A stretch of 64,000 nucleotides of DNA, taken from positions 41,767-105,766 of the IMG/VR virus record IMGVR_UViG_3300027996_001813. One strand, given 5' to 3'. The translations under genes and the position numbers were made by a program. The stretch comes from a virus. This document shows, piece after piece, positions 35,224 through 63,288 of this stretch. The notes under the pieces are model-generated. The model did no database searches. It had not been told where the DNA came from and worked only from the letters and a program-made list of their open reading frames with translations. Every line of letters begins with the position of its first letter. Positions within the stretch are counted from its first letter, which is position 1.

Positions 35224-36217
35224 TATGATAATGCTGCATATAGGGCTGAGATTGCTGTGTCATACAGAGCCAAATGTTTCCTACGTCTTCACCAGCTAAC
35301 GCCTTCTTATAAAAAGAATCGTCTTTCCAGTTGTTGTCACAGTCACAGTGTTGTGCAACCTGAGGACGATGATTAATTATTGCCGGATGTTCTCCGTCAA
35401 AATACAGCACGGGCTCTGTAACATCAAACCAGTCTTTAACTTTTTGGTCAAACTTTACGTCGGCATTGTCGTGTTTAGCAAGCTCGCCTTTGTAATACTC
35501 TTGTTTTTGTTCCATGACTTCATTCATGTTTCTACGAGCATACCCATAGTGGTAAATAAAAATAGGATCCCTAGGTACAATTCTACGTGGTTGATAATGT
35601 GGTGAAAAGTATGTACAGTGACCAGCAGGATCAGTCAATACAGGGTGGCTATTATACTTCATGCCACGCACATACTTAATAATCCTTTGATGCTGAGTGT
35701 TCCATTCGGGACCAGGAACCGCAATATGATCAAGGTCACGATAAAAATGCAAGAAGGTAGGAATAAATTCTTGAGCTTGCGGATCAAGCTCAATAGCCTT
35801 ACGTAATCGTCTAATGTCCTCGGGACGATAGAACTCATCAGCATCATTAATGAGAATCCAATCTCCAGGTACAGACATGTCCAAGAAGGTCTGCTTCATA
35901 TCCTCAAGATCCTTCCAGTGCTTGTTAATTGAGATCACCACAAGCTTGTTGTCAGGATCGTTGTGAGCTTTAAAATCATCAATAACACCTTTCGTGTTGT
36001 CGGTTGAGTGACCATCCTCCGTGGAGTTGGGGCGGTTCTCAACGGCACCTTCAATAACGAGAATGCGATCTACCTCGTCATAGATAGAGTGTAGTACTGC
36101 TCCCGCGAAATCTTCCTCGTTGTGCATCTGAATACACTGAACGATCCTTACGGGGCGATTGACACGCTCCGCAATACACTGCATCTGCGGTACGTAATGG
36201 ATTTGTTGCTGATTCAT
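35207..36217 (-). CDS. GT2-like glycosyltransferase
   Basis: A 336-residue protein. The GT-A core begins IVQCIQMHNEEDFAGAVLHS, and the metal site is in GDWILINDADEFYRPEDIR. HPAIINHRPQVAQH and a Gln/His-rich end follow. It resembles glycosyltransferases with a DADE motif that act on a nearby acceptor. It has no membrane helix. Its start overlaps the stop of the upstream GT4 gene. Confidence 0.82.
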   Translation of the reverse strand: MNQQQIHYVPQMQCIAERVNRPVRIVQCIQMHNEEDFAGAVLHSIYDEVDRILVIEGAVENRPNSTEDGHSTDNTKGVIDDFKAHNDPDNKLVVISINKHWKDLEDMKQTFLDMSVPGDWILINDADEFYRPEDIRRLRKAIELDPQAQEFIPTFLHFYRDLDHIAVPGPEWNTQHQRIIKYVRGMKYNSHPVLTDPAGHCTYFSPHYQPRRIVPRDPIFIYHYGYARRNMNEVMEQKQEYYKGELAKHDNADVKFDQKVKDWFDVTEPVLYFDGEHPAIINHRPQVAQHCDCDNNWKDDSFYKKALAGEDVGNIWLCMTQQSQPYMQHYHNGMSF

Positions 36218-37458
36218 AGGGTTTCCTCCAACGATACTTCGGCTTCCTTATATCTAGCTACGCCGGTCTCTTTCCAAGATTGTACTGCGGCCTCTACTTG
36301 CTCGACAATCTGTTCATGGACATTACGGTAATCTAGCTTTTCTCCTACTAGCTTTGCATTCTCACGACGCTGTAAAACGGCTTTCCACTCGGCTTGACCC
36401 TGTTCGTCCAACACATCAGCTTCATTTGCCTTGCGAAGAATATGGAAACGCTGCATGGTCATGGCAAGCTCTACGGGCGAAGGCTCAAAACATTGTTCTA
36501 GACCAGTAAAGAGACCAGGGTCAGGGTGCGGCATGTCATAGAAGAATGTCGGGGTACCACCATAAACCAGAGAGTTCTCAGGTGTCACAAACTCTGCAAG
36601 ACCACCAGCGTTATGACTAATGACCGTGTTGCCGTGTGCCAACGCATCAAACGCAGGGATGCCCCAGCCTTCGCCACGACTAGTACAAACGTACGCATCG
36701 CCACGAGCATGAAGACCGTGAACCTCGTCGTCACTCATGGTGTAAATGACGGGCAAGATAGGCGGGTACTCACTGATGGGGATCCGACAACGCTCTTTGA
36801 CGCCCTGGATGTATTGCTTCACTATTTCAAGGTCATTCTGTCGTCCACCCATATTGACATAGGTCTTGAGAACCAACAGAACATCGTTAGGAGCACCAGC
36901 AAACGCTGCAAAGTACGCACGCAGAAGAACATCAATACCCTTCTTTGTGCTTAGTTGGCAGATGTTATAAAACACGGTTCGCCCTTCAATGTTGTCGATA
37001 ACAAACGGCTCGTAGTCACGCTTATAGTCATCAACGTCACAAGGAGGACCAGCCACCAAGATAGGCTTGTTAACGCCAGAATTCAAGAGTGCTGTAGCAT
37101 TGTGCTTAGAGGGGACAATCAAAAAGTCAAACTCATTAGCTTTAGCTACCCACCCTTGTTGAATACGGTCTGTCTCTAAAAAAGTATATAGACCATTGGG
37201 AATTCCAGGAACGGGCACTGCTTCGTTGTTGCATGTAATCATCTGTAAAGCAACGTCTACGTTCTGTAGGTCGTTCTCTAACAGAGGTTGCATCCAATCG
37301 GGCACCTCAAATTCTTGTCCTTCGTCCAAAGAGTCAAACTTAAGAGGACGAGCCGTAATTTCTAGTCTGTCATTCTGAGCTAGTGCCTGCAAGAGATGAC
37401 GCGATGCTGTGGCAAATCCCGAAAAATCCATCAACGGTCCAACGTACAAAAGCTTCAT
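36214..37458 (-). CDS. GT4-family glycosyltransferase (copy 3)
   Basis: A 414-residue GT-B protein: LLYVGPLMDFSGFATASRHL at the N-terminus, TVFYNICQLSTKKGIDVLL, YVCTSRGEGWGIPAFDALAHG (catalytic acidic pattern) and GNTVISHNAGG. Its ATG at 37458 has a very strong site, AGGAGGGG at 37464-37471. The 50-base gap upstream holds a motif similar to the late element at 5292. Confidence 0.9.
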   Translation of the reverse strand: MKLLYVGPLMDFSGFATASRHLLQALAQNDRLEITARPLKFDSLDEGQEFEVPDWMQPLLENDLQNVDVALQMITCNNEAVPVPGIPNGLYTFLETDRIQQGWVAKANEFDFLIVPSKHNATALLNSGVNKPILVAGPPCDVDDYKRDYEPFVIDNIEGRTVFYNICQLSTKKGIDVLLRAYFAAFAGAPNDVLLVLKTYVNMGGRQNDLEIVKQYIQGVKERCRIPISEYPPILPVIYTMSDDEVHGLHARGDAYVCTSRGEGWGIPAFDALAHGNTVISHNAGGLAEFVTPENSLVYGGTPTFFYDMPHPDPGLFTGLEQCFEPSPVELAMTMQRFHILRKANEADVLDEQGQAEWKAVLQRRENAKLVGEKLDYRNVHEQIVEQVEAAVQSWKETGVARYKEAEVSLEETL

Positions 37459-37463
37459 ACTAA

Positions 37464-37486
37464 CCCCTCCTTTAAATAGTCTACTA
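37464..37486 (-). promoter_or_regulatory. Strong RBS and divergent copy of the late motif
   Basis: On the minus strand, TAGTAGACT at 37478-37486 runs into ATTTAA and AGGAGGGG at 37464-37471, five bases before the ATG. Over 16 bases the upstream part differs from copy D (5292) at three positions, so it may be a variant of the same element or a coincidence. Confidence 0.35.
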
Positions 37487-37508
37487 AGCTGTTAATCATA
37501 TTTTTTCT

Positions 37509-39314
37509 TTAGATAAATTCTTGCGTGGGACGCTGGGCCACAGGTGCTATACCAGCAACCTCTTGTCTGATTTGATCGCGTAGTTTACCACCATCAGACT
37601 GCTGGTTACCAATTGCGACAAACTGTTTCATGATCTGTTCACGAGGAACACCAAGTCCAAGATGCTGAATCCAAGTCTTGGCACCCTCTGGGTCAACTGC
37701 CGGATACTTCAATACATTAATGTACAACCACTCGACATACTGCTCGTCACTTAGTCCATCAGGAACAGGAACAGCTTGAATAGAATCATGCTCAATAATA
37801 GGACTATCCCACGTCTGCGAACGGTCTAGCGGCTTGATGTTATCAAGAACGTACTCCCATTGCTTCCAGAGTTTATTCCAGTCGTAATTCTCTTCGGTAC
37901 ACTCACGAGCCTCAATACCAAGAGCCTTAAGCTTAACAGGATCAGTGATCATGTTACGCATCTTATCGGCAAGATCGTCAACGTCTGGGTGGGCACGAAT
38001 ACACCCCGTTTCTGGTTCATGGTAATAACGACCAACATCAATAACGTCACCACCCTTAGTACAGGTGTAGTTATCCTCAGTGATCTTGAGATCTTCAAAA
38101 TGATTGTAGTCAGGGAAACGCCCCTTCTCACGCATGGCCGTGTAGTCTGTTACTAGAGTCGGAACGCCACAAGCTTTAGCTTCCTGAATAGGCATTCCGT
38201 CACCCTCACAAATCGAACACTGAACATAAAGATCCATGAGGTTATATAGCTTAGCAAGATCTTCTCTTGTAAAACCACCAGCGGTGTTCGGAGGAGAAGC
38301 TTCAATTGCTCCACAGTGAGGACAAGGCAACTTAATGCGACCATCCTGCGTGGGCTTACCCCACAGGTTCATAGCAAAGGTCACGGAAGGCTCTTGACAT
38401 GCATGACAGTACATGGACTGCAAGATACTACCACGAATACCTTTACTGGCATATGGCATCCAGTCGTAAGACTCTAGACGCATAATGTGTCTAGGGTAAT
38501 CGTAAGAGTGTGCGTTATCCGGCCACGAAGAATGAATCAACAGAACCGCCTTATCAACAGCGTCTTCTCCTTTGTACTTCTCCTTCATCGCGGCAAAGCC
38601 ATCGATAAGATCAGGATACAGTTTACGACTTTGGTTACGCATAACCGTGCCGATAACAGGGTTGTCACTATTTAGGTTCCAGTGCTCACGAGTCTCCTTG
38701 GTGTCCATGGGCAGAAACGTTTCTAGGTCAACACCAGGACGCATGGCCTTAGGAAAAATACTAACGCTTTTCTTACCGTTAGGCAACAGTTGGCTCTGAC
38801 GACGCAGGGTGTGAACACCATAATCAGAGTACGCCAAAACCATTTCAGCGTTCTCATAGGTTTTCATCCACTCTTCTGCCTGAGGTTCAGCGTCAACAGT
38901 AGGCATCACAACCCACTTAAACCAAGAGCGAAACACACTTCGCTCTTGGAATTCTAGCATCCACCAGTCACGGATATCGATAACGATATCCGGCTTAAAA
39001 TCAGCACATACATGGTTGAATTTGTACTCGCCAAACTGGTTAGTGTTCTGGCCTCGTGTGCGAGGGTGCGGATTCGGAGCGTTGAAGGCTTGAGCCTCTT
39101 CCTGGGTCGTGGGCATTACGCCATAGAACTTCCAGCGACCCTGGATGAACTCCTGGACCTTAGGATCGTCCTGGCGTACATACGAACCAAGCTCAGCGAT
39201 TTCATATTTCCCTGTGGCCACCAATCTAGGGATCAATTCCCTATAGTATGTCGAAAAACCAGTACTAAGATTACTGGCTTCTCCGATAAACAAAATACGT
39301 TTCTTGTTACTCAT
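37509..39314 (-). CDS. GT-B glycosyltransferase with zinc ribbon and C-terminal DUF4214-like domain
   Basis: A 601-residue protein. The N-terminal domain starts ILFIGEASNLSTGFSTYYREL. Between the two Rossmann domains is a zinc ribbon (Cys303/306 CHAC and Cys331/334 CPHC) within the extra segment at about residues 295-340. The C-terminal domain has CSICEGDGMPIQEAKACG, the conserved Glu motif of GT4. Residues ~530-575 (QYVEWLYINVLKYPAVDPEG, then REQIMKQF) match DUF4214, a helical domain common in surface glycan and adhesin proteins. It is the first gene of the sugar island and follows the sigma factor gene with a four-base overlap. Confidence 0.8.
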   Translation of the reverse strand: MSNKKRILFIGEASNLSTGFSTYYRELIPRLVATGKYEIAELGSYVRQDDPKVQEFIQGRWKFYGVMPTTQEEAQAFNAPNPHPRTRGQNTNQFGEYKFNHVCADFKPDIVIDIRDWWMLEFQERSVFRSWFKWVVMPTVDAEPQAEEWMKTYENAEMVLAYSDYGVHTLRRQSQLLPNGKKSVSIFPKAMRPGVDLETFLPMDTKETREHWNLNSDNPVIGTVMRNQSRKLYPDLIDGFAAMKEKYKGEDAVDKAVLLIHSSWPDNAHSYDYPRHIMRLESYDWMPYASKGIRGSILQSMYCHACQEPSVTFAMNLWGKPTQDGRIKLPCPHCGAIEASPPNTAGGFTREDLAKLYNLMDLYVQCSICEGDGMPIQEAKACGVPTLVTDYTAMREKGRFPDYNHFEDLKITEDNYTCTKGGDVIDVGRYYHEPETGCIRAHPDVDDLADKMRNMITDPVKLKALGIEARECTEENYDWNKLWKQWEYVLDNIKPLDRSQTWDSPIIEHDSIQAVPVPDGLSDEQYVEWLYINVLKYPAVDPEGAKTWIQHLGLGVPREQIMKQFVAIGNQQSDGGKLRDQIRQEVAGIAPVAQRPTQEFI

Positions 39315-51975: not shown

Positions 51976-51984
51976 AATACACTA
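51976..51984 (-). promoter_or_regulatory. Candidate late regulatory motif TAGTGTATT (copy C)
   Basis: TAGTGTATT on the minus strand, overlapping the TAG stop of the 733-residue gene; it continues TTATAGC. It is 91 bases before the ATG at 51884. The rest of this gap shows no other recognisable feature. Confidence 0.5.
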
Positions 51985-54183
51985 ATTGATTGGAGTGTAG
52001 ACGATCTTAAACGCCGGGTTCGTCTGGGATCCCCGTTGTAGAGGACCAAGGTCCGTGTAGTGAACAATCTCGAAAAAATCAGAACGTTCTTCAATACGAA
52101 ACAAGTATAGACGTTTGTGATGCCAGTTGGTAAATCCAAGAGACTTGGGATCCGCAGCAATCATTAACGCATAAAGACCGGGAGTGACATGTTCAGCAGT
52201 AGCGGGCACTTCTTTGAGGTCTATCAGTTTGGCTTTTTGATAGTAACCAAGACCATGTGGATCAGGCGGCAAATCACGAATTGGCTTTTCTGTACTATAA
52301 CTAGATCCAGCAGAGTACGACGCTAGACATGGCTGGCTAGCACAACTGGCCGCTAGTGATATGGTGTCAATTTGACCACTAGTACCTGCACCTAGCCCCT
52401 TACGAAATCCATACAAGGTCCCATTGATTTCTGTAAGATCATCTGGGTCAACAGAGGTAACTCCCACGCCGAGAGTTCTGTCATAGTACCAAAAGATTGG
52501 GTCCAAAGAAATGCCGGTGTGGTCGTATGTGAATCTCCAAATGAAAGACTCATAAACAACATTACCAAACTGTGGACTGCCTTGTACATATATTTTTTTA
52601 TCAACACCGTCGTCCACGTATGTTATCTCAGGAAAAAATACGTCTCCTCTACTGCCAGCAGGGCTACTAGGGAAATTTAGGTTAGCTGTCGGTACCGTAA
52701 TAACTTCTTCTCGTATGAAGTTCAGATGTTCATCATAAATCTGAAACTGCATATCTGCTGTATGAAGAGAATTTTCTGGCGATCTATTGTGTAGTCTGAT
52801 AATTTCAGCAGTACCAGCAACGCCACTTGGTACACGAGTGAGTCCCGTGTGCCACTGCCAGCCTCTACCGGGATTGCCACCACCACCACCAGTACTTTTT
52901 TCTAAATCAGCATAACGTACCCACGCATACTTACCAGTATGTGGCGATATTACACATAGTCCAGATGGAGGAGAAGTTTGTGCGTTTACAAGACTAGTTA
53001 TATTCCCAAAATCTAAAATCCAGAGAGCATCATTGAATACTTCAAATCCTTCTGATCCACCAAAAAACATACCACCAGAAGCAATGGGCGGTACATCAAC
53101 GGGAGTACGTATCTGATCTAATGGAAACGCCTCGTCGTTATTTGGCCAACGACTAATTATACCAGATTCAACAGCAGTGCGTACATGTTCTCTGCGATTA
53201 CGTACTGCTACAGCGTACACGCCAGATGCAAAAGTGCCAGAAGGCGTGACAAAGATACGAGCAAAATCAACATCAACACCAGAAGACCCAACGGTACGTG
53301 GTGCTGCTGTACCATAACCAAAGTCACCACCAGGACTTGTACCGGATCCTGGAGCATTGGTATACTTGATACCACCATCACTCATTTGTCCTAAGAATAC
53401 GTCAGTAAAATCCCCTAGTGCATAACCATCAATACGAACAAACCCAGAAGCGACATGATCCGTTCTATACAAATCATTACCAGCTAATGAACTGGGTTCC
53501 CTTCCTGTGTGAGTAACAAGACCTGCATCTGTTCTCATGAAGTTAGGGAACATCGGCATGATGGGCACCTGAAAATCATTCACTGTGCCGTTGCTATGAT
53601 TACCGTGAGCGTTTGTACGTTTTGGTTGAGCTAAAAATGGATATGGATTCCACATCACTTCTGCATAATCAATGTCAAACAAATATCCTGAAGTGGCTAT
53701 CACGTCGGCGTCTTCTCCAACAATGAATCCTTCATGTGAAGGAGCACGATGGAGATAAATTCCTGGGTCTGCTTGACCGCTCGGACTTTCAGGGTATATC
53801 TGACTAAACCAATCTGTCCTATGTTGTGTAGACGTATAGTTTGAATCTACAGAATAACTGTGAAACAAAAAGTTTAGACTCTTTCTTAGATCAAGAATAT
53901 AGCCTACATCTGTAGCACTACCCACCATAAAAGGGTTGGCCAACGTAGCACCACCCGGCTGTGGTTCATACGTGCCAGATGGTGGCGACAAATCAAATGA
54001 ACGATAAGCGTACCAATCAGGCAAGAAGGTAGAATCAAATAACTGTCTGTGTTCAGCAGTATGAGCAAATTGAGCATCCTCAATCGTCACACCAGAGTAA
54101 GAAATTTGAATACCTTCTGCTGGTTGTCGGAATGGTTGCCCATTCTCATACGCATAAGGAATTTGTCCAGAACCAATAACCAT
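51982..54183 (-). CDS. Large tail-associated structural protein
   Basis: A 733-residue beta-rich protein. It starts MVIGSGQIPYAYENGQP and contains many Gly/Ser/Thr-rich stretches (GGATLANPFMVGS, GSGTSPGGDFGYG), a linker GGGGGNPGRG, and a repetitive end. It has no signal peptide. It starts right on the stop of the hub-like gene (TAATG). The place and composition indicate a tail or baseplate component; no specific family is recognised. Confidence 0.75.
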   Translation of the reverse strand: MVIGSGQIPYAYENGQPFRQPAEGIQISYSGVTIEDAQFAHTAEHRQLFDSTFLPDWYAYRSFDLSPPSGTYEPQPGGATLANPFMVGSATDVGYILDLRKSLNFLFHSYSVDSNYTSTQHRTDWFSQIYPESPSGQADPGIYLHRAPSHEGFIVGEDADVIATSGYLFDIDYAEVMWNPYPFLAQPKRTNAHGNHSNGTVNDFQVPIMPMFPNFMRTDAGLVTHTGREPSSLAGNDLYRTDHVASGFVRIDGYALGDFTDVFLGQMSDGGIKYTNAPGSGTSPGGDFGYGTAAPRTVGSSGVDVDFARIFVTPSGTFASGVYAVAVRNRREHVRTAVESGIISRWPNNDEAFPLDQIRTPVDVPPIASGGMFFGGSEGFEVFNDALWILDFGNITSLVNAQTSPPSGLCVISPHTGKYAWVRYADLEKSTGGGGGNPGRGWQWHTGLTRVPSGVAGTAEIIRLHNRSPENSLHTADMQFQIYDEHLNFIREEVITVPTANLNFPSSPAGSRGDVFFPEITYVDDGVDKKIYVQGSPQFGNVVYESFIWRFTYDHTGISLDPIFWYYDRTLGVGVTSVDPDDLTEINGTLYGFRKGLGAGTSGQIDTISLAASCASQPCLASYSAGSSYSTEKPIRDLPPDPHGLGYYQKAKLIDLKEVPATAEHVTPGLYALMIAADPKSLGFTNWHHKRLYLFRIEERSDFFEIVHYTDLGPLQRGSQTNPAFKIVYTPIN

Positions 54184-57100
54184 TAGAGTACCAATTTCTG
54201 AATGAATCCAGGCTTTACGATTTCAATATAATTGACTGTTGCAGTAGCACCAAAGCTACCACTAGCTACACTAAGCGTCACTAAGTACCCTTTATCGCCA
54301 GAAGCGGCTAGCTCTGGGAACGGAATAGGCACTACGTTTCCTGTAAGTGTCCCCGAAGACACAACCTGTCCATTGAAATCTAGTGGTCGGACATTTGCTC
54401 TAGCAGTAGACTCACCAGGACGTGCCACACCAATAATTTGAACAGGCGTTACGCCAGCAGCATCGGTCACTGTACCGTTAATGAAGATCGTACCATCGCT
54501 GGCTCCAGGCGACACGGGAGCATCACCTTGAACAGCAAGTGTTGTCTTGTCACCAAGAGATACAGAACCATTCAAAACTTCAACAGCAAACACGGCACGA
54601 TCCGTACCTAAAGCCGATGCCGTTGGATCAACAATTGTCACATCATATTTAGTAGGCTCATCAACATTAGAGCGTTCAACTTCAACAATAGTACCATTGC
54701 CAAACGGACGACCTTGAGTAAAGTATCTTAGGATAGTGTTGCCTCCAGATAGTTCGAACTCATCCGTATGATACATTGCCTCATCATTAATGTTTAGGAA
54801 ACCATCAATACAAATAGCACCTTCCTGAAAGTCAATACTACTACCAGCGGTAGATGGTTTCGTATATAGGTTTTGATCAATCCCTCTATAGCGTTCATCT
54901 ACTTCGTCACCAGCAGTGCTAGAAAGAGTAAATATATTGTTCACTTCCGTAATCGTCACGCGAACCGCACGTTCTTCGCGATCAAAGAATAGTGGCGGAA
55001 CAAATGGATCACCCGGAAGAATTGGATTCGTCGGAGGTCCAGGAGTAGGATCGAGTAGTGCTAGACTACTGAAGTCAATAGGATTCAGGACGCCATTCAG
55101 AACGGCACGTACACGTTCTCCCAATGGGGCTTCGCGGCCAAATTTCGGGAAGTACGACTGAATTTTGTATCTGGTTAGGAACCCTTCGGTTCCAAACGAA
55201 ATGTTCGTCTCACTTACGCCGTGACTAATTTCACCATATGATCCAGAAGGACCGATCCCTTGTTCAGCAAAAGCATCAAATGACAGGAGCGGTAATCCAA
55301 CCTGATTGAAGTCAGCATAGCGTGAAGAACTCTTGGGGACAATCTTGCCCTCAGCTCTGCGAACTGCACGACTAGACATAACCTGTAAAGATGTTTCATC
55401 GCCCACAGGAGAAAATGCCCAAGGCACAAACTGATCGTCTAATTGTACATCTTCGTCACGCTCGTAATGAAGGTCGCCTAGTACCCACTGACTCGGGTAA
55501 GACTGTCCATAACGATTACGAGCCTGCACAGGAATAGCTACGCCGGATAGAGCACTGTAAACATTAAGAACAACCGCAGGGTTGATGATGTCTAGTGTTG
55601 TCTCAGCGTCTAGCTTTGCGTTAGTAGTTACTAGTGTGGCCAGTGAAGAAATTGTGTTGTCAATCGACAGACCGCCAGAGGCTCCAGCGTTGATGGGTAA
55701 TTGACACCAAATGGTTCCTTCAGGATAGTCTTCAAAAGAGTATAGTTCGTCGCTGCGAGGATTGATAACGCGGTTACCCACGATAGTCAACTCTACAGGA
55801 ATATAGTGGCTACCATCTCCGGTAGGGTTAAACGGAGGTGCGTCTTCTGTCCAGTTGCCAAAACCAGCAGGGTTACTATCGCCCTGTGGTCCATAGACCG
55901 TATCGGATGGCAAACGACAGTGAGCACTAACACGAAAGTCATCAGTAATAAACGGACTGACTGGACCTAGGTCTCTATTGATTTCGTAATCTTCAACGAA
56001 AACACCACTAGCTCCCGTTGTGCCAGAAGGAGACAAAGAGAACCCTTCTACTTGATTTTCTACGTTAGCCCATGCGGCACCAACAAGATTATATAGTCCC
56101 TCGGTATCATCAAACAATAGTCCTTCAAGAATATACGAACGACCATAGTGTCTAGAAGCATGATCGCGTAATCTTGCATAAAAAGACAATACCCAGTTTT
56201 GTTCTTCGTCTCTACGGTTATTGATAACACGAATACCAGACTCAGCGGCACCAGTTGCCAAACCAGCCAACGGCATTACCGGATCAAAACGACTCTGAAA
56301 CGTTAGGTGCTGAGCAGCAATAGATCCAGCGTCAACAGGAAGACCATAGCCAGCAGGATCGCTAAGTGGACTTGTGGCTTGATAAATCTTATAGTATGTC
56401 CATTGCTCGATACCCGCTAACGCAAGCTGCAACTCTTTTTCTTGAGGAATGTACGTACGATAGAAACCATCGGCATCATAGAAGCCAACCGTCAGCTTGT
56501 TCCACGCGGGCTGGAACACAACGCCACTCTGTGTACTATTTGTGTCAGTTATGTCATCTAATGCCAGAGTGTCTAGTCCATCAATAGGACTTAACAAGTG
56601 CGAGTTAATGAAGCCTTCTTGGTGACCACCCAAAACACGGAAACGTGTAGGATCAGGTACAACATCCTGACCAAAACCAAGCTGCTTTGTTTCGTTCAAT
56701 CCACTAGTACTACCAAACTCGGATACCAGATCAAGTATGTCTGACTCACTGATATCAAACGTTGTTTTCTTATTGATCAGGTTGATGCGTTGAGCATCCA
56801 TACTCCAGTACCAATCGTAGCCGGTATCTAGAAGAATACGAGATAGTACTTCGTCCAATTGCGATAAATTGAATTGGAAACGAAGTGCCTCAATGGTACC
56901 GCCAATGTTCTTTTCGAGCTGCTCCACCGTAGGTAGATCAGACACAGAAACAGAGCATTTACCTTCATTAAAATGTAAATCAATGGCCGCTAACACCTGA
57001 CTATACGTAGCACCAAACTGCAAGATGCGACGATACTCTTTAATGTTAGGATCATTAGGATCACCACCGACATCAGTTAGACCATTAACTACTCGATATC

Positions 57101-57536
57101 CTCTAGCGACAGATACAACACCACTAGGTGCATCTTCTCCTAAGTCTTCCGTATGAATCTTAACTCGTCTCAGTTCGTGTCTATTGTCTTCGACCGTAAC
57201 ACTGACAATAGTACCACCAGGACTAGTAGTATAGTCAGAGTGAGTAACCTTTCCTCGAAAAAAGAAATCACCTACAAAGAGTTCTAGAGAGTGCCCAATA
57301 TCTGGAAGTTGGCCAGAGGCTCCATGGAATGCACACGGGTCGCCACATGGCACCCATTCCGTCTGGAACGAATGCGGCGTTAAGTTGAAACCAAATGAAG
57401 CATTCACCGACGATAGGAACGCACATAGTTGCGATCCCGGTTCGTTACTGGCAAACTGACCGGAAGGCCATTCGATGCCGTTAAGGGGTACACCTACCCC
57501 ACTAACAACAATGCCGTCTGAAACAAGAATATTCAT
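54183..57536 (-). CDS. Baseplate hub/tail-associated structural protein
   Basis: A 1117-residue protein. Residues ~80-280 (SLELFVGDFFFRGKVT, VSVTVEDNRHELRRV, YRRILQFGATYSQVLAA, LSQLDEVLSRILLDTGYDWYW) resemble the beta-barrel hub proteins of phage tails that surround the tube end. The second half is repetitive and beta-rich. It starts on a four-base overlap with a LAGLIDADG gene. The hub call is based on strand pattern, not on a search. Confidence 0.7.
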   Translation of the reverse strand: MNILVSDGIVVSGVGVPLNGIEWPSGQFASNEPGSQLCAFLSSVNASFGFNLTPHSFQTEWVPCGDPCAFHGASGQLPDIGHSLELFVGDFFFRGKVTHSDYTTSPGGTIVSVTVEDNRHELRRVKIHTEDLGEDAPSGVVSVARGYRVVNGLTDVGGDPNDPNIKEYRRILQFGATYSQVLAAIDLHFNEGKCSVSVSDLPTVEQLEKNIGGTIEALRFQFNLSQLDEVLSRILLDTGYDWYWSMDAQRINLINKKTTFDISESDILDLVSEFGSTSGLNETKQLGFGQDVVPDPTRFRVLGGHQEGFINSHLLSPIDGLDTLALDDITDTNSTQSGVVFQPAWNKLTVGFYDADGFYRTYIPQEKELQLALAGIEQWTYYKIYQATSPLSDPAGYGLPVDAGSIAAQHLTFQSRFDPVMPLAGLATGAAESGIRVINNRRDEEQNWVLSFYARLRDHASRHYGRSYILEGLLFDDTEGLYNLVGAAWANVENQVEGFSLSPSGTTGASGVFVEDYEINRDLGPVSPFITDDFRVSAHCRLPSDTVYGPQGDSNPAGFGNWTEDAPPFNPTGDGSHYIPVELTIVGNRVINPRSDELYSFEDYPEGTIWCQLPINAGASGGLSIDNTISSLATLVTTNAKLDAETTLDIINPAVVLNVYSALSGVAIPVQARNRYGQSYPSQWVLGDLHYERDEDVQLDDQFVPWAFSPVGDETSLQVMSSRAVRRAEGKIVPKSSSRYADFNQVGLPLLSFDAFAEQGIGPSGSYGEISHGVSETNISFGTEGFLTRYKIQSYFPKFGREAPLGERVRAVLNGVLNPIDFSSLALLDPTPGPPTNPILPGDPFVPPLFFDREERAVRVTITEVNNIFTLSSTAGDEVDERYRGIDQNLYTKPSTAGSSIDFQEGAICIDGFLNINDEAMYHTDEFELSGGNTILRYFTQGRPFGNGTIVEVERSNVDEPTKYDVTIVDPTASALGTDRAVFAVEVLNGSVSLGDKTTLAVQGDAPVSPGASDGTIFINGTVTDAAGVTPVQIIGVARPGESTARANVRPLDFNGQVVSSGTLTGNVVPIPFPELAASGDKGYLVTLSVASGSFGATATVNYIEIVKPGFIQKLVL

Positions 57537-58144
57537 ACCTTACTCCATTTTCTTAACAAGTATGGAATGTCTAGTCCCATCAGATGTCGTGCAACATTAA
57601 CAGCACGTCGGCCCTTGACTCTATAGTTACATGACCTTTTATTCTTATAGTAATATAGCTTAGCTAATGATTTACCTTTAAAGGTATTACTGTCTAGTTC
57701 ATCAAAAACATCTTTAATCCATGATAACATAGACTCATTACCAGTCACTTGCAACGCTAAATATTTGTCATCTTCTTTGTAGATTGATCCATCGCCATCA
57801 ATATAGCCTACAATATAAGATAACATATTGTCTCCAATCAAATGAGTAGGTGGCATAAGTATATGCGTCTTACGAGGACCAATAAAAAAGTTTCGATTAA
57901 GATCTGATAACAGTTTTTTACTATAAGCACGCAACTCTGTCAGGTCTATTCTAGCTTGTCGTAATGGTCTATTAGATTCCATATCATCAGCCAATTGTTG
58001 CAGATGATTCTTGTCCTGATTATTCAATGCAACAATCAATTCGTCTCGATACACACATCCATCTGCCGCAATAAACCCCGCCCAATAGGAGTTCAATACG
58101 TTTGGATGTTCGAAAAAATCCTGATTAAGTGTATACTTTCTCAT
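57533..58144 (-). CDS. LAGLIDADG homing endonuclease (copy 3)
   Basis: A 203-residue protein with YWAGFIAADGCV near residue 20 and IVGYIDGDGSI near residue 108. It is related to the copies at 5774 and 28802. It is placed perfectly between two structural genes: ATGA overlaps on both sides (58141-58144 and 57533-57536). The neighbours look complete, so it is free-standing. Confidence 0.9.
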   Translation of the reverse strand: MRKYTLNQDFFEHPNVLNSYWAGFIAADGCVYRDELIVALNNQDKNHLQQLADDMESNRPLRQARIDLTELRAYSKKLLSDLNRNFFIGPRKTHILMPPTHLIGDNMLSYIVGYIDGDGSIYKEDDKYLALQVTGNESMLSWIKDVFDELDSNTFKGKSLAKLYYYKNKRSCNYRVKGRRAVNVARHLMGLDIPYLLRKWSKV

Positions 58145-61100
58145 TTCTGACTATTTAAAAAATCTGAACCACTTTCGAGTGAATCACACCAGATCACACC
58201 ACGCGAATCGCGTACACACCAGACTGGCTTGTACGTTCCTGGTTGCGTATAGTTGTGTGTCGGGCTAAATGCAATCGTTGTCTGCCCATCATCGAAGTGA
58301 AGTAGCTGAGTTGAGATACTTACTCCAGGCGGCAGAATATTGATATCCGTATCGAAGTCAACGATCAGGCCAGCGTCACCAGAACGCGGAGTACCCGACA
58401 GACTGATTAGTACTGGATCAATACCAGATGCCGCACTGATGATTCTTGTAGCGGAAGCATGTAGACCATCAGAATCGATAGCCTCAAACTTTGCAATAAA
58501 GAATCCACTGGATGCGTATCTGTGTTGTACCGGGTAACATCCCGCACCACTTTCGGCAACGGTCTCTGCGGGCGTGAAGTCTCCGAACGTCCACTTAGTA
58601 GAAGTAATCGACTTACCCTGTTGGCCAGAAGCTTTAGCTACGAAGTACTGGTTGAACGGCGGTGCTAATCCACTAACCGATGCATCCGGCACAATGATGT
58701 CTACTAACGGCGGAACCTCGTCCTGGAAAATGACAACCTTAGCATCAAAGTCTGAACCAACTGTTTTTGCGATTTCAAGCTGTGCATCAAAGTCCTTTGC
58801 CGCTAGTACGTCAACGGTGAATCCAGCGTCAAACTCAAAGTTGCTTTGTAATCCACCGAGCATGAAGCCGCCAATGATGCCGCTTCCAAGATCGGAAGCG
58901 TTCATAAAGCCACCAAGCACGCCGCTTGACAATTCAGAGGCAAAGATCATACCGCCGAAGTGACCAGAGCCAACCTCTTGACCACGAATATAGCCAGCAA
59001 TAGAGCCAGAGCCAACATCGACACCAAGCATGTAACCACCCATGATGCCAGATACGTCGTCTAGACCGTGAATCCAGCCACCAATGGTTCCGTCGCTAAA
59101 GACAACGCCAGAAACGAATCCACCAAAGAGTCCACTACCTTCAAGGCCACCAGGCATGAAACCACCAAAGAGGCCAGAGCCAGTGTCTTGACCGTGTGCA
59201 AAGCCGCCGATGATTCCGGATCCAGTATCCTGACCATGCATGAAGCCACCAACAATACCACTGGTTACTGTACCAGTAGCACTATCAATACCGTTTTGTG
59301 CAACGTAACGTACTTCTAATTCACTTAAGGCACGCGAAAAATAGAACACATCTGTCATTACAGAATCAACATCGAGAACATTGTTTTGACGAAAATCCCA
59401 TGCGGCAGGTGTTTGTCCAGCGGCTTGATGAGAACGGAAGGTTATCATCCGTGTCGTAGGCTCAACCGGAGTCTGTGGTGCAATAGGATTACCAGTCCAA
59501 GGATTCTGTTTTGGATCGGTGGGCACGCCATTACTGTCACTGAAATATGAATCAATAAATCGTTCGTCTACTAAATTACCATTGAGGTAACAACGTACGC
59601 CGCTACCGTCAGTAGTTGAAGGGTTATAAGTCCAACAATAATGATCCCAATAGTCTATAACGGGAGTACGAAAACTACCTTGTTTCCATGAATTAAAACT
59701 ACGTTCAGCAGTTAAAGGATTAACAGAAGAAGTTGTACCACAAACAACTTGACCAGAGTTTGCGGCATTCGAGTTTGAATCGATATACATGTTACCACCA
59801 GTAGAGATGATCATCTTCATGTTTTCAAGATCATCCATACCAATAGCCCAACCACGATTAGGATCAACCGAAGTGTCTCCTATCAGACCATTGGGTGGTG
59901 AAGCAGTAAATACGCCATAAGACAGTAAGCAATCAAAAGTGTTGGAAGCAACGCCTTCTCGTTTAGCCATTAAAAAGCCAACAGAAAAACCATCAGCAGG
60001 AGTATCAAATACAGCACCAGAAACCGCAAATGGCGGCAACATGTTTGGAGAACTATTAGCGGGAGCAATACTAGCATTATGAAAACCGCTACACTGTACG
60101 CCAAGATCAGAATTCCTGTATGGCCCCGCTAACGCACGCTGAGTCTCAGCAAGGTCAACACTTGTGCCTTGTTCATAAAAACGTTGGGCGATAGCGTCAA
60201 GATGATTTCCTTTAAGACTAAGATCTGTGGTACCAGAACCACCAGGAGAGTTAGACACTTCCCCTATGTTGCCGTCGAAACCATTAAACCTCCAATAACC
60301 TTCCAATGCACTATCTGCAATAGAAACTTGCGTAGTTGGTAATTGTGCAGAATATCCAGTGATCGTTGGGCTTTGAACACCGCTTACAGCAAGAGCCTCT
60401 ACTTCTCCTTTTTCAAAGATTCCACGCATGATAAATATTTCACGCATATAAATTTCACCAAGTCCACTATCGGCAGAAACGTGTGTAATTATTGAATCCG
60501 TGCCTGCATAGCCACCAAACTGAAGCAGCCAGTCAGAAGTACCCCCACCAGGAAACTGATCAGACCATAATCGCCAATTGTTACACTCGTCTGTACGACT
60601 ATTTACTTTTTGACCATTAATCCATAAAGAAATAGTCATGGGTGAATTGCCAGCAGTAAAACCGTTTACGCGATACGGTTCTTCAAATTTAGCGTGTAGT
60701 AAAACTTTACTAGGTACACCAAGCGATAATGTGCCAGATATAATAGGAGTAATATTGGTGGTTGAAGAACCATCACGACCAACAAAACAAACCGTAACGC
60801 CAGAACCACCGAGACCCTCATCAAAACCAAGTGGATCGGGTGAAACGCTATTTTGCATTGTTAAAAATGATGTTACTTCACCATCGGTAGTGTTAACTCC
60901 CAGGTTACCATGAGCATGTAATGTAGAGTTAAACCAACGTTGTTGACTGTTTAAAGCATGACCAGTGGCATCACGAAACGGAATATCTCCACTGGGAGTA
61001 ACCTCAAAAGAAATTAAGTACTCATTAAGATTTTGTGGTCCTAAGTCTCTTTCTTCTGTAGCGGGCTGCCAACGTGGATTAGAACTGAATGGCGTATTAC

Positions 61101-63288
61101 GAGAATCTTTATTGTCGGCTATACCACCAGCAAATTGTGATCCACCATGAGGCATGAAGGTACCAGAGGTAATACCAAGATTACCAAATGTTTGCTGAAG
61201 GGCATTAGGGGTGCGTGTTTCGCCAGTAAACAAATCAACAAATGCAGTTCCATCGTCGCGAAATACTTCTGGATCAGGTCGGATATTATTTAGGTTGTAT
61301 ACACGTTCCCATTTAGTATTTGAATGTCCACGAGTTAATGGTCCGGTCACAGGTGACATAGCACGAGCTACATCATCAACAAAAATATCACCAAGATCAA
61401 ACGTATCACATGGCCAATATCCCATTAACCTAGGGTCATATCGTGTCCTCCAAAGTCTAGAGGTGTCAATGCCGCTCTGTGCCATGAATCGCATTTCATC
61501 AGCAAGTAAAGGACGTGACAATACTGCATATGGGCCAGAAGTCATGTCTATGCCGCCATTACCAAGAACGCCCTTTGTAGAACTATCGCCAACTTGATTA
61601 CTAATTCCATTAGTAAACATTATAGGAAAACCACTACCAGCAAGTTTAGTCAAGTGGCTACTCAAATTATGTGCAAGTGTACCACTTGCAGCTTCATAAC
61701 CATCTACATATAATGCAATTCCTTGTGTGGCTGCATCATAAACAATACCATAGTGTACATTTACCGTACGTAAAAGCTGTTCTCCTGAGGAACGCAATGC
61801 AACATTACTATCCGTACCATCACCTACTGGAAAAACTTCTAATGTAACTCTATCGCCAAAAGGAGTTTGTCTAAAGTAGGACAGTGACATACCAAGTGTA
61901 TTTCCTGTAACTGTCGCTGGTGTTGTAGCCCCAGCAGTCGCAGTAGAAACAGACCCCATACTGATCATCATGTTGCCGTCACGATCATTGGCAATGGCTC
62001 GTGGTTGAAAAAATCCACAAATAGTAAATCCACCATTTGCTGTTACTGCATCAAAAGTAGCACCACTAGGAACTGCAACAAAATCTGATGGAGAAATACC
62101 CGCGTTTTGATGTACACGATTTACATTAAATGGACCAGGATCCCATGTAAATCCCGTAGACCTATCACCAGGATCTTTTTCCGAATGAAAACTATTGTGG
62201 TTTTTACTAGCGTCTACCCAGCCTGGTCCTTTGTTTTCAATATATGCTAATAAATGATTATCGGTGATGTCTACAGCCGTTACATTATCTCGTATACTAA
62301 AATCTGGCTGAAGACCACCACGTTGATGCATGTCAAGAATTTCACTTGATGTCAAAGCACGACGGAAACAATATGCACCAGACACCAAATGACCCCAGCC
62401 ACTTGTAGATTCATATCCATCAGTCGAAATGGTATGGTTTGTTGTACCACCAATGGTTAAAGGAACAGAGTCGGGACCACTAGTATTGGTAGAATCAAAA
62501 ACAATATCCTGTGCCGTTGTACCAGTAGCTTCTAAACGACCATCTTTATATAGTTCAATTTCATTAGAAGTTCCATCAATATAACGATAGATCATCGTCA
62601 AATGAGTAAAACGACCAGACTCAATTGGAGAACTAAGTTCTGGTGAATTGTTACCTACGGTAGAAGTATCAGCACTATCGGCTAAAAGAAAAGCTCGTAA
62701 TTGAGGTGGACCACCAAGTTCACTATCACTAACTGGTGTGGCGGCAGCTAAAGACCCCGATACTCCCATAAACCAACCATTATCATTATTGGATTGCCCC
62801 ATAAGAGCGTGTACACGAGCATAACCCTTAAACCAGCCGTGACTAGATAAAGTAAAACCGCCTTCTGTGCGTGCATTAAGCCAGCCGTCGCTCATGGGAT
62901 AAACCCAGAAACCAGCAGTAAAGCCACTTTGAGCAATAGCGGGACCTAAAGTTTCTGAACGTTGAATACGTGTTCCGTCACCAAGTACCAACACTTTAGA
63001 AAACGGTGCAGTGACATCATTGCCTAGTTGCTCTGCACGTCCCTGTAGTTTTAACCCTCTAATTTGTACACCAGAAAAAGGCTGGTCAATAATTTCTTGT
63101 CCAGGCCAAACACTCGCAGCCTCGGGGTCAGAAACATTAAGAACAGCAGTATGCACAAGCATATCAAATGACACGCCACTGGGATGATTACCATATGCTG
63201 GAGAAAAGTTCTTCCACGAAGGAGTACCACTCGGTTCGTTGAGCGGCCAGAACCCTACAAGGGAACCATCATTAATTAGGTTGGGCAT
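58141..63288 (-). CDS. Giant LamG/PKD-domain tail protein with 14-residue repeats
   Basis: A 1715-residue virion protein. At least four LamG/concanavalin-like domains are present (for example SGFTAGFWVYPMSD, NGGFTICGFFQPRA, LNEYLISFEVTPSG, DGFSVGFLMAKREG), each with a later KDG, VDG or LNG strand (LYKDGRLEATG, LYVDGYEAASG, CYLNGNLVDE). Residues 1342-1481 are ten 14-residue repeats. Two PKD-like domains close the protein (WTFGDFTPAET, LLHFDDGQTTI). LamG and PKD folds bind carbohydrates or proteins, so this is a likely host-adhesion protein. Confidence 0.85.
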   Translation of the reverse strand: MPNLINDGSLVGFWPLNEPSGTPSWKNFSPAYGNHPSGVSFDMLVHTAVLNVSDPEAASVWPGQEIIDQPFSGVQIRGLKLQGRAEQLGNDVTAPFSKVLVLGDGTRIQRSETLGPAIAQSGFTAGFWVYPMSDGWLNARTEGGFTLSSHGWFKGYARVHALMGQSNNDNGWFMGVSGSLAAATPVSDSELGGPPQLRAFLLADSADTSTVGNNSPELSSPIESGRFTHLTMIYRYIDGTSNEIELYKDGRLEATGTTAQDIVFDSTNTSGPDSVPLTIGGTTNHTISTDGYESTSGWGHLVSGAYCFRRALTSSEILDMHQRGGLQPDFSIRDNVTAVDITDNHLLAYIENKGPGWVDASKNHNSFHSEKDPGDRSTGFTWDPGPFNVNRVHQNAGISPSDFVAVPSGATFDAVTANGGFTICGFFQPRAIANDRDGNMMISMGSVSTATAGATTPATVTGNTLGMSLSYFRQTPFGDRVTLEVFPVGDGTDSNVALRSSGEQLLRTVNVHYGIVYDAATQGIALYVDGYEAASGTLAHNLSSHLTKLAGSGFPIMFTNGISNQVGDSSTKGVLGNGGIDMTSGPYAVLSRPLLADEMRFMAQSGIDTSRLWRTRYDPRLMGYWPCDTFDLGDIFVDDVARAMSPVTGPLTRGHSNTKWERVYNLNNIRPDPEVFRDDGTAFVDLFTGETRTPNALQQTFGNLGITSGTFMPHGGSQFAGGIADNKDSRNTPFSSNPRWQPATEERDLGPQNLNEYLISFEVTPSGDIPFRDATGHALNSQQRWFNSTLHAHGNLGVNTTDGEVTSFLTMQNSVSPDPLGFDEGLGGSGVTVCFVGRDGSSTTNITPIISGTLSLGVPSKVLLHAKFEEPYRVNGFTAGNSPMTISLWINGQKVNSRTDECNNWRLWSDQFPGGGTSDWLLQFGGYAGTDSIITHVSADSGLGEIYMREIFIMRGIFEKGEVEALAVSGVQSPTITGYSAQLPTTQVSIADSALEGYWRFNGFDGNIGEVSNSPGGSGTTDLSLKGNHLDAIAQRFYEQGTSVDLAETQRALAGPYRNSDLGVQCSGFHNASIAPANSSPNMLPPFAVSGAVFDTPADGFSVGFLMAKREGVASNTFDCLLSYGVFTASPPNGLIGDTSVDPNRGWAIGMDDLENMKMIISTGGNMYIDSNSNAANSGQVVCGTTSSVNPLTAERSFNSWKQGSFRTPVIDYWDHYCWTYNPSTTDGSGVRCYLNGNLVDERFIDSYFSDSNGVPTDPKQNPWTGNPIAPQTPVEPTTRMITFRSHQAAGQTPAAWDFRQNNVLDVDSVMTDVFYFSRALSELEVRYVAQNGIDSATGTVTSGIVGGFMHGQDTGSGIIGGFAHGQDTGSGLFGGFMPGGLEGSGLFGGFVSGVVFSDGTIGGWIHGLDDVSGIMGGYMLGVDVGSGSIAGYIRGQEVGSGHFGGMIFASELSSGVLGGFMNASDLGSGIIGGFMLGGLQSNFEFDAGFTVDVLAAKDFDAQLEIAKTVGSDFDAKVVIFQDEVPPLVDIIVPDASVSGLAPPFNQYFVAKASGQQGKSITSTKWTFGDFTPAETVAESGAGCYPVQHRYASSGFFIAKFEAIDSDGLHASATRIISAASGIDPVLISLSGTPRSGDAGLIVDFDTDINILPPGVSISTQLLHFDDGQTTIAFSPTHNYTQPGTYKPVWCVRDSRGVIWCDSLESGSDFLNSQK
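58846..59265 (-). repeat. Ten tandem 42-bp (14-residue) coding repeats
   Basis: The frame of the giant tail protein encodes ten in-register 14-residue units, consensus GSGxxGGFMxGxxx (examples GSGIIGGFAHGQDT, GSGHFGGMIFASEL, SSGVLGGFMNASDL). Units share Gly3, Gly6 and an aromatic or Met pair. Exact length without insertions over 420 bases suggests a solenoid or a stacked glycine-rich structure. Confidence 0.88.

Follow-up and report, generated by a model that had tools for sequence, protein, structure and literature searches.

The locus studied here raises a simple question: what does a run of glycine-rich units of exactly equal length do in the middle of a giant phage protein built from LamG and PKD domains? 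The stretch of DNA that we analysed (the window) is the last 64 kb of a virus record of 105,766 bases, and the record stops just upstream of the gene in question. Our favoured answer is that the array, 140 residues long, serves as a short and rigid spacer with a beta-solenoid (beta-roll) fold within the giant adhesin at the tail tip of an uncultured lineage of tailed phages; we regard this as the probable, though by no means certain, explanation.

Domain organization and gene neighbourhood

The gene lies on the minus strand (58141..63288) and encodes a protein of 1715 residues (P0001), which is a probable tail-tip adhesin according to its open reading frame, its Pfam LamG and PKD domains and its synteny in relatives. 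These are the domains expected of a LamG/PKD phage tail adhesin. By eye, the N-terminal 1340 residues form four LamG-like modules. The first of these, about three concanavalin A-like modules at 60277..63288 (minus strand) with approximate boundaries drawn by inspection, rest on the Pfam profile Laminin_G_3, which matches three stretches of the protein (best at residues 416-543, E 1.7e-8). The fourth, at about residues 1005-1340 (59269..60276, minus strand), was recognized from an AlphaFold2 model of the homologous domain and from Foldseek matches to ConA-like/LamG folds, and it stops directly at the repeats. The ten glycine units follow (residues 1341-1480; 58849..59268, minus strand), defined by self-similarity and by the AlphaFold2 model of a seven-unit homologue. 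Adjoining them are three more 14-residue stretches, which we call DFDA-type (residues 1481-1522; 58848..58723, minus strand) and which the sequence-only reading of this DNA had overlooked, and then two PKD domains at residues 1554-1616 (PF00801; 58441..58629, minus strand) and 1632-1700 (PF18911; 58189..58395, minus strand), with Pfam E-values in the protein of 2e-11 for PKD_4 and 6e-7 for PKD. That reading had placed the repeats at 58846-59265, as a connection between LamG and PKD domains. The array is indeed there and Pfam puts LamG before it and the two PKD domains after it, but the ends were one codon off (59268..58849).

Downstream of the adhesin gene, the window encodes two large proteins of 1117 and 733 residues (51982-57536, minus strand), neither of which has a Pfam or PHROG match. 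The first of these, P0002 (54183..57536, minus strand; family unassigned), adjoins the repeat protein in 16 of 16 records and is, from its position, a possible tail-tip or hub protein. The order tape measure, repeat protein, P0002 homologue holds in 15 of 15 relatives, and the genes before the repeat protein in a 183-kb relative include a tape-measure protein of 1812 residues. Given the LamG and PKD domains and this place after the tape measure in relatives, the 1715-residue protein is very probably a tail-tip adhesin, and the same domain content and gene position point to a role in host binding.

Two side observations concern this region. An HNH-type endonuclease gene (57533..58144, minus strand; phrog_4645, E 2e-27) immediately follows the adhesin gene, ahead of the next virion-type gene, and lies outside the repeat module. 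In the 183-kb relative, an endonuclease VII-like gene (L216:19062-19610) immediately precedes the adhesin gene; endonuclease genes seem to settle beside the adhesin. Elsewhere in the window there are two adjoining glycosyltransferase-like genes (36214-39314, minus strand), the longer of which (601 residues) carries a C-terminal DUF4214.

Sequence and conservation of the repeat units

The ten consecutive units follow one another without gaps and share the consensus xxSG[IL][ILVF]GG[YF][IMV]xGxD. Compared with itself at a lag of 14 residues, the array scores 2.40 per position in BLOSUM62 units, at 48% identity, far above the maximum of 0.38 reached in 1000 composition-preserving shuffles over lags of 5-44. 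This bears out the earlier, slightly understated observation that ten 14-residue units keep their length perfectly over 140 residues. Across 221 distinct units collected from relatives, position 4 is glycine in 99%, position 7 is G/A in 99%, position 8 is G/A/S in 98%, position 12 is G/A/S in ~100% and position 3 is serine in 90%. Positions 5, 6 and 10 of these units are hydrophobic (83-97%) and position 9 is aromatic or large hydrophobic (96%); the variable positions are 1, 11, 13 and 14.

This spacing of glycines, G-xxx-G in each unit with hydrophobic residues between, could also be read as a membrane-active glycine zipper (G4xxxG8xxxG12) for insertion into the host membrane as the phage enters. 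We consider this extremely improbable, as the Kyte-Doolittle mean over 19 residues peaks at 1.18 in the array, below both the usual transmembrane level and the maximum found elsewhere in the same protein, polar residues recur every 14 positions, and AlphaFold2 assigns strands to the units.

The array is old and conserved at the protein level. Codons differ at synonymous sites between units, and this, together with the orthology of units across phages, rules out a recent tandem duplication of the DNA. Between proteins, orthologous units are on average 61% identical and non-orthologous units 42-44%, so the array must be older than the divergence of these phages. The dN/dS of the repeats in four relatives is ~0.08, 0.09, 0.10 and 0.18, values that are approximate because dS exceeds 1.

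The array is present in every relative with a complete region, always between the end of LamG and the DFDA-type stretches. From the last glycine unit to the last DFDA motif there are 44 residues in nearly all relatives, the two exceptions being a one-residue insertion and a unit missed by the search pattern. Sixteen arrays have 10 units, thirteen have 7, one has 8 and one has 9 plus a 4-residue stub (counts that take in near-identical pairs), and short insertions occur at a unit boundary. In a 2773-residue relative (L221) the units occur three times, as groups of 5, 1 and 7, each of which directly follows the end of a LamG domain. We conclude that the array is a constrained structural module whose length varies by whole units and is no loose linker. 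The lengths 10 and 7 dominate, and these three-unit steps may reflect a few ancestral events. A rule limiting the length to 3n+1 (7, 10) was set aside, as there is one array of 8 and one of 9, and the tree offers little resolution.

Distribution among relatives

Protein and DNA-pattern scans found the repeat module in about 33 uncultured IMG/VR contigs of up to 183 kb. On inspection, 27 of the 28 IMG/VR stretches that carry a two-unit DNA pattern were family members. A looser three-unit pattern added one more member (L170), its remaining new matches being low-complexity chance matches or contigs already known. Among bacterial and archaeal genomes, of which 84,980 were scanned, the two-unit pattern also matched 93 stretches. 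Only one of these stretches was recognized as real; the others that were read were unrelated glycine-rich or out-of-frame sequence, a few of them with no open frame at the match, and a cellular origin of the module was rejected. The single recognized match lies on a phage-like contig (NZ_JAILWB010000012.1) of the Hydrogenophaga sp. MAG ECS22B1. This contig also encodes a tape measure, and its DNA polymerase and P0002 homologue are 83% and 81% identical to those of the window. It is closely related to the window's phage and offers a hint at the host, which could be Hydrogenophaga or another member of the Burkholderiales.

In a tblastn search of 50,697 cultured phage records, in which BLAST masks low-complexity sequence, the repeat region, the PKD end and the fourth LamG module all had no match, and P0002 likewise found none among cultured phage records. 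Plasmid matches to the PKD end (25-29% identity) were set aside as generic PKD-type similarity. For the glycine repeat itself, there was no profile or sequence match in Pfam, PHROGs or PDB sequences, and literature searches for the motif of the unit found nothing. The sequence-only reading had not recognized a named family with this unit, which agrees with these searches. Neither of the outcomes that it had set against its own proposal, disorder without conservation or a match to a described family, was observed, the array being conserved in relatives. The repeats make up a genuine family, in an uncultured phage lineage, that the libraries searched do not contain, and their architecture is of a familiar kind.

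Structure prediction and the proposed spacer

We used AlphaFold2 on two constructs, both with shallow alignments. The units and DFDA-type stretches of the window, with 19 aligned sequences, gave an all-beta model of the units at a pLDDT of 46. Prediction of the units by themselves had been proposed as a check on the rod idea, and it yielded strands at poor confidence. Foldseek found nothing significant with this model (best E 0.6), the weak matches being mostly beta-solenoids. The second run covered a seven-unit relative including its fourth LamG module and PKD domains, with 23 aligned sequences. In this context the units reached 50-64, the LamG module mostly 75-90 and the first PKD domain 71-85. 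Units 1-6 each formed a first strand (positions 1-6), a Gly-Gly turn and a second strand (positions 9-11), and the seventh unit did so only partially. Foldseek matches of this model were mostly to the ordinary ConA-like jelly-roll of LamG, including the receptor-binding domains of clostridial neurotoxins; this fold is generic and shared, and the matches carry no implication of a toxin function. The earlier suggestion of a beta-solenoid or rod is partly supported, by the solenoid-like model in context but not by the poor run on the units. Taken together, a two-strand stacked coil per unit is supported with moderate confidence, short of proof.

If this is correct, each 14-residue unit would make one coil: positions 1-6 would form strand 1 and positions 9-11 strand 2, with the Gly-Gly turn at 7-8 between them and a small-residue turn at 12-14. 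The reported coil rise of a beta-roll is ~4.8 Å (PMC9543794), and ten coils stacked in register at about that distance would give a rod of ~5 nm. The conserved positions would face inside or lie in the turns, and the variable positions 1, 11, 13 and 14 would form the solvent face. The three DFDA-type stretches would lead from the coils into the PKD pair. Such a rod would hold the lectin-like LamG modules apart from the PKD domains at the C terminus by a fixed distance, which the gain or loss of whole coils would tune.

Besides the poor units-only model, the shallow alignments and the absence of a solved homologue among PDB sequences, two observations count against a solenoid. The units show no clear alternating beta amphipathicity, and the single isolated unit of the 2773-residue relative could not form a solenoid by itself. 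The DFDA-type stretches (consensus xxxxDFDAxLxIxx) keep the 14-residue period with a consensus unlike that of the glycine units, and their alternating hydrophobic pattern is strongly strand-like, with a hydrophobic moment of 2.21 at 180 degrees against 0.53 at 100 degrees. Their pLDDT, in domain context in the seven-unit relative, is only 27-40.

The array could instead be a flexible, largely disordered glycine-rich linker, retained for nothing more than its length and low complexity. The low pLDDT of the units-only run, the abundance of glycine and the single unit in one relative would all fit such a linker. We nevertheless judge it distinctly unlikely in view of the strong purifying selection, the unit-specific conservation between orthologues, the strict periodicity of hydrophobic and aromatic positions and the positive GRAVY of the array (0.55). 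The abundance of small residues suggests another reading, a polyglycine-II-type sandwich as in the tips of T-even gp38-type adhesins, or some other glycine-packed fold, with the variable positions as binding loops. It would suit a unit that has four small or glycine positions and variable residues along its edge, as this one does. However, both AlphaFold2 runs assigned beta strands, and positions 5, 6, 9 and 10 carry bulky I/L/V/F/Y residues, which are unusual for a polyglycine-II lattice, so that we find this reading rather unlikely.

Significance

With this array, the few stiff spacers known in phage adhesins gain an unlisted repeat family, and one that is well conserved. The repeat module and its synteny can also serve as a marker for a probable receptor-binding protein in uncultured phages of ~150-180 kb, which have no close cultured relatives for the adhesin protein. 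Should the array prove to be a 14-residue beta-roll, phage tail proteins and the trimeric adhesins of bacteria would have converged on this fold, and the role of spacer length could be tested directly with the arrays of 7 and 10 units.

Comparison with known systems

The protein resembles LamG/ConA-like and PKD phage tail proteins in having both domains by Pfam, and LamG also by fold, but it differs from them in its 14-residue spacer, for which the family libraries searched have no entry. With the T-even gp38-type tips it shares glycine-rich repeated motifs in a phage receptor-binding protein, whereas its units have bulky aliphatic and aromatic residues, a strict 14-residue length and predicted strands. 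Phage beta-solenoid shafts and spikes, such as the triple-stranded beta-helix of T4 gp5 and the beta-helices of tailspikes, are similar in their beta repeats and in a likely role as stiff spacers, but the glycine units have no PDB sequence match. The octapeptide repeat of gp5 and the longer coils of tailspikes are unlike the 14-residue unit in both length and consensus.

Phage fibres are often trimers, which favours a special case of the spacer proposed here, a homotrimeric left-handed parallel beta-roll like the head of YadA; a trimer is plausible. Three chains would lie side by side, each with coils of 14 residues, with I6 toward the three-fold axis and I5 and I10 inside; the surface would carry Y9 and positions 11, 13 and 14. 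The head motif of YadA-type proteins (PF05658, trimeric autotransporter adhesins) is GxNSVAIGAxSxAx, with a conserved glycine at position 8 (PMC9543794). Both arrays have a 14-residue coil with an invariant glycine at the turn (here ten units, with G/A at position 7 in 99%), serine and isoleucine at equivalent register, lengths that vary by whole coils, an adhesin context and loop insertions at one coil boundary (PMC9543794). The register S3=S4, I6=I7, G7=G8 is the best of 14 by BLOSUM and entropy correlation, but the BLOSUM score is negative in all 14 registers and a third measure ranks this one fourth. The unit has a bulky residue at position 5 where YadA has alanine, and glycine at position 4 where YadA has valine. 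Sequence comparison did not place the array among the YadA heads: Pfam YadA_head finds no match in the protein of the window or in its relatives (up to E 10 for four), and hhalign against environmental YadA-head arrays gives a probability near 0. The phage array also lies between the LamG and PKD domains of a tail protein, with no coiled-coil stalk or autotransporter anchor found. We therefore hold the YadA-like trimer as possible but doubtful.

In its most specific form, the proposal would make SG[IL][IL]GG[YF][IMV]xG the unit of an undescribed 14-residue beta-roll class that builds a trimeric rod in phages of a lineage with no cultured member. Such a rod would have no sequence relationship to YadA-type heads but would resemble them, by convergence, in its coil length and glycine turn, and its length would be set by the gain or loss of whole coils (7, 8, 9, 10). 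This we put forward tentatively, as less likely than not. In the broader sense, the glycine array may work like a beta-roll.
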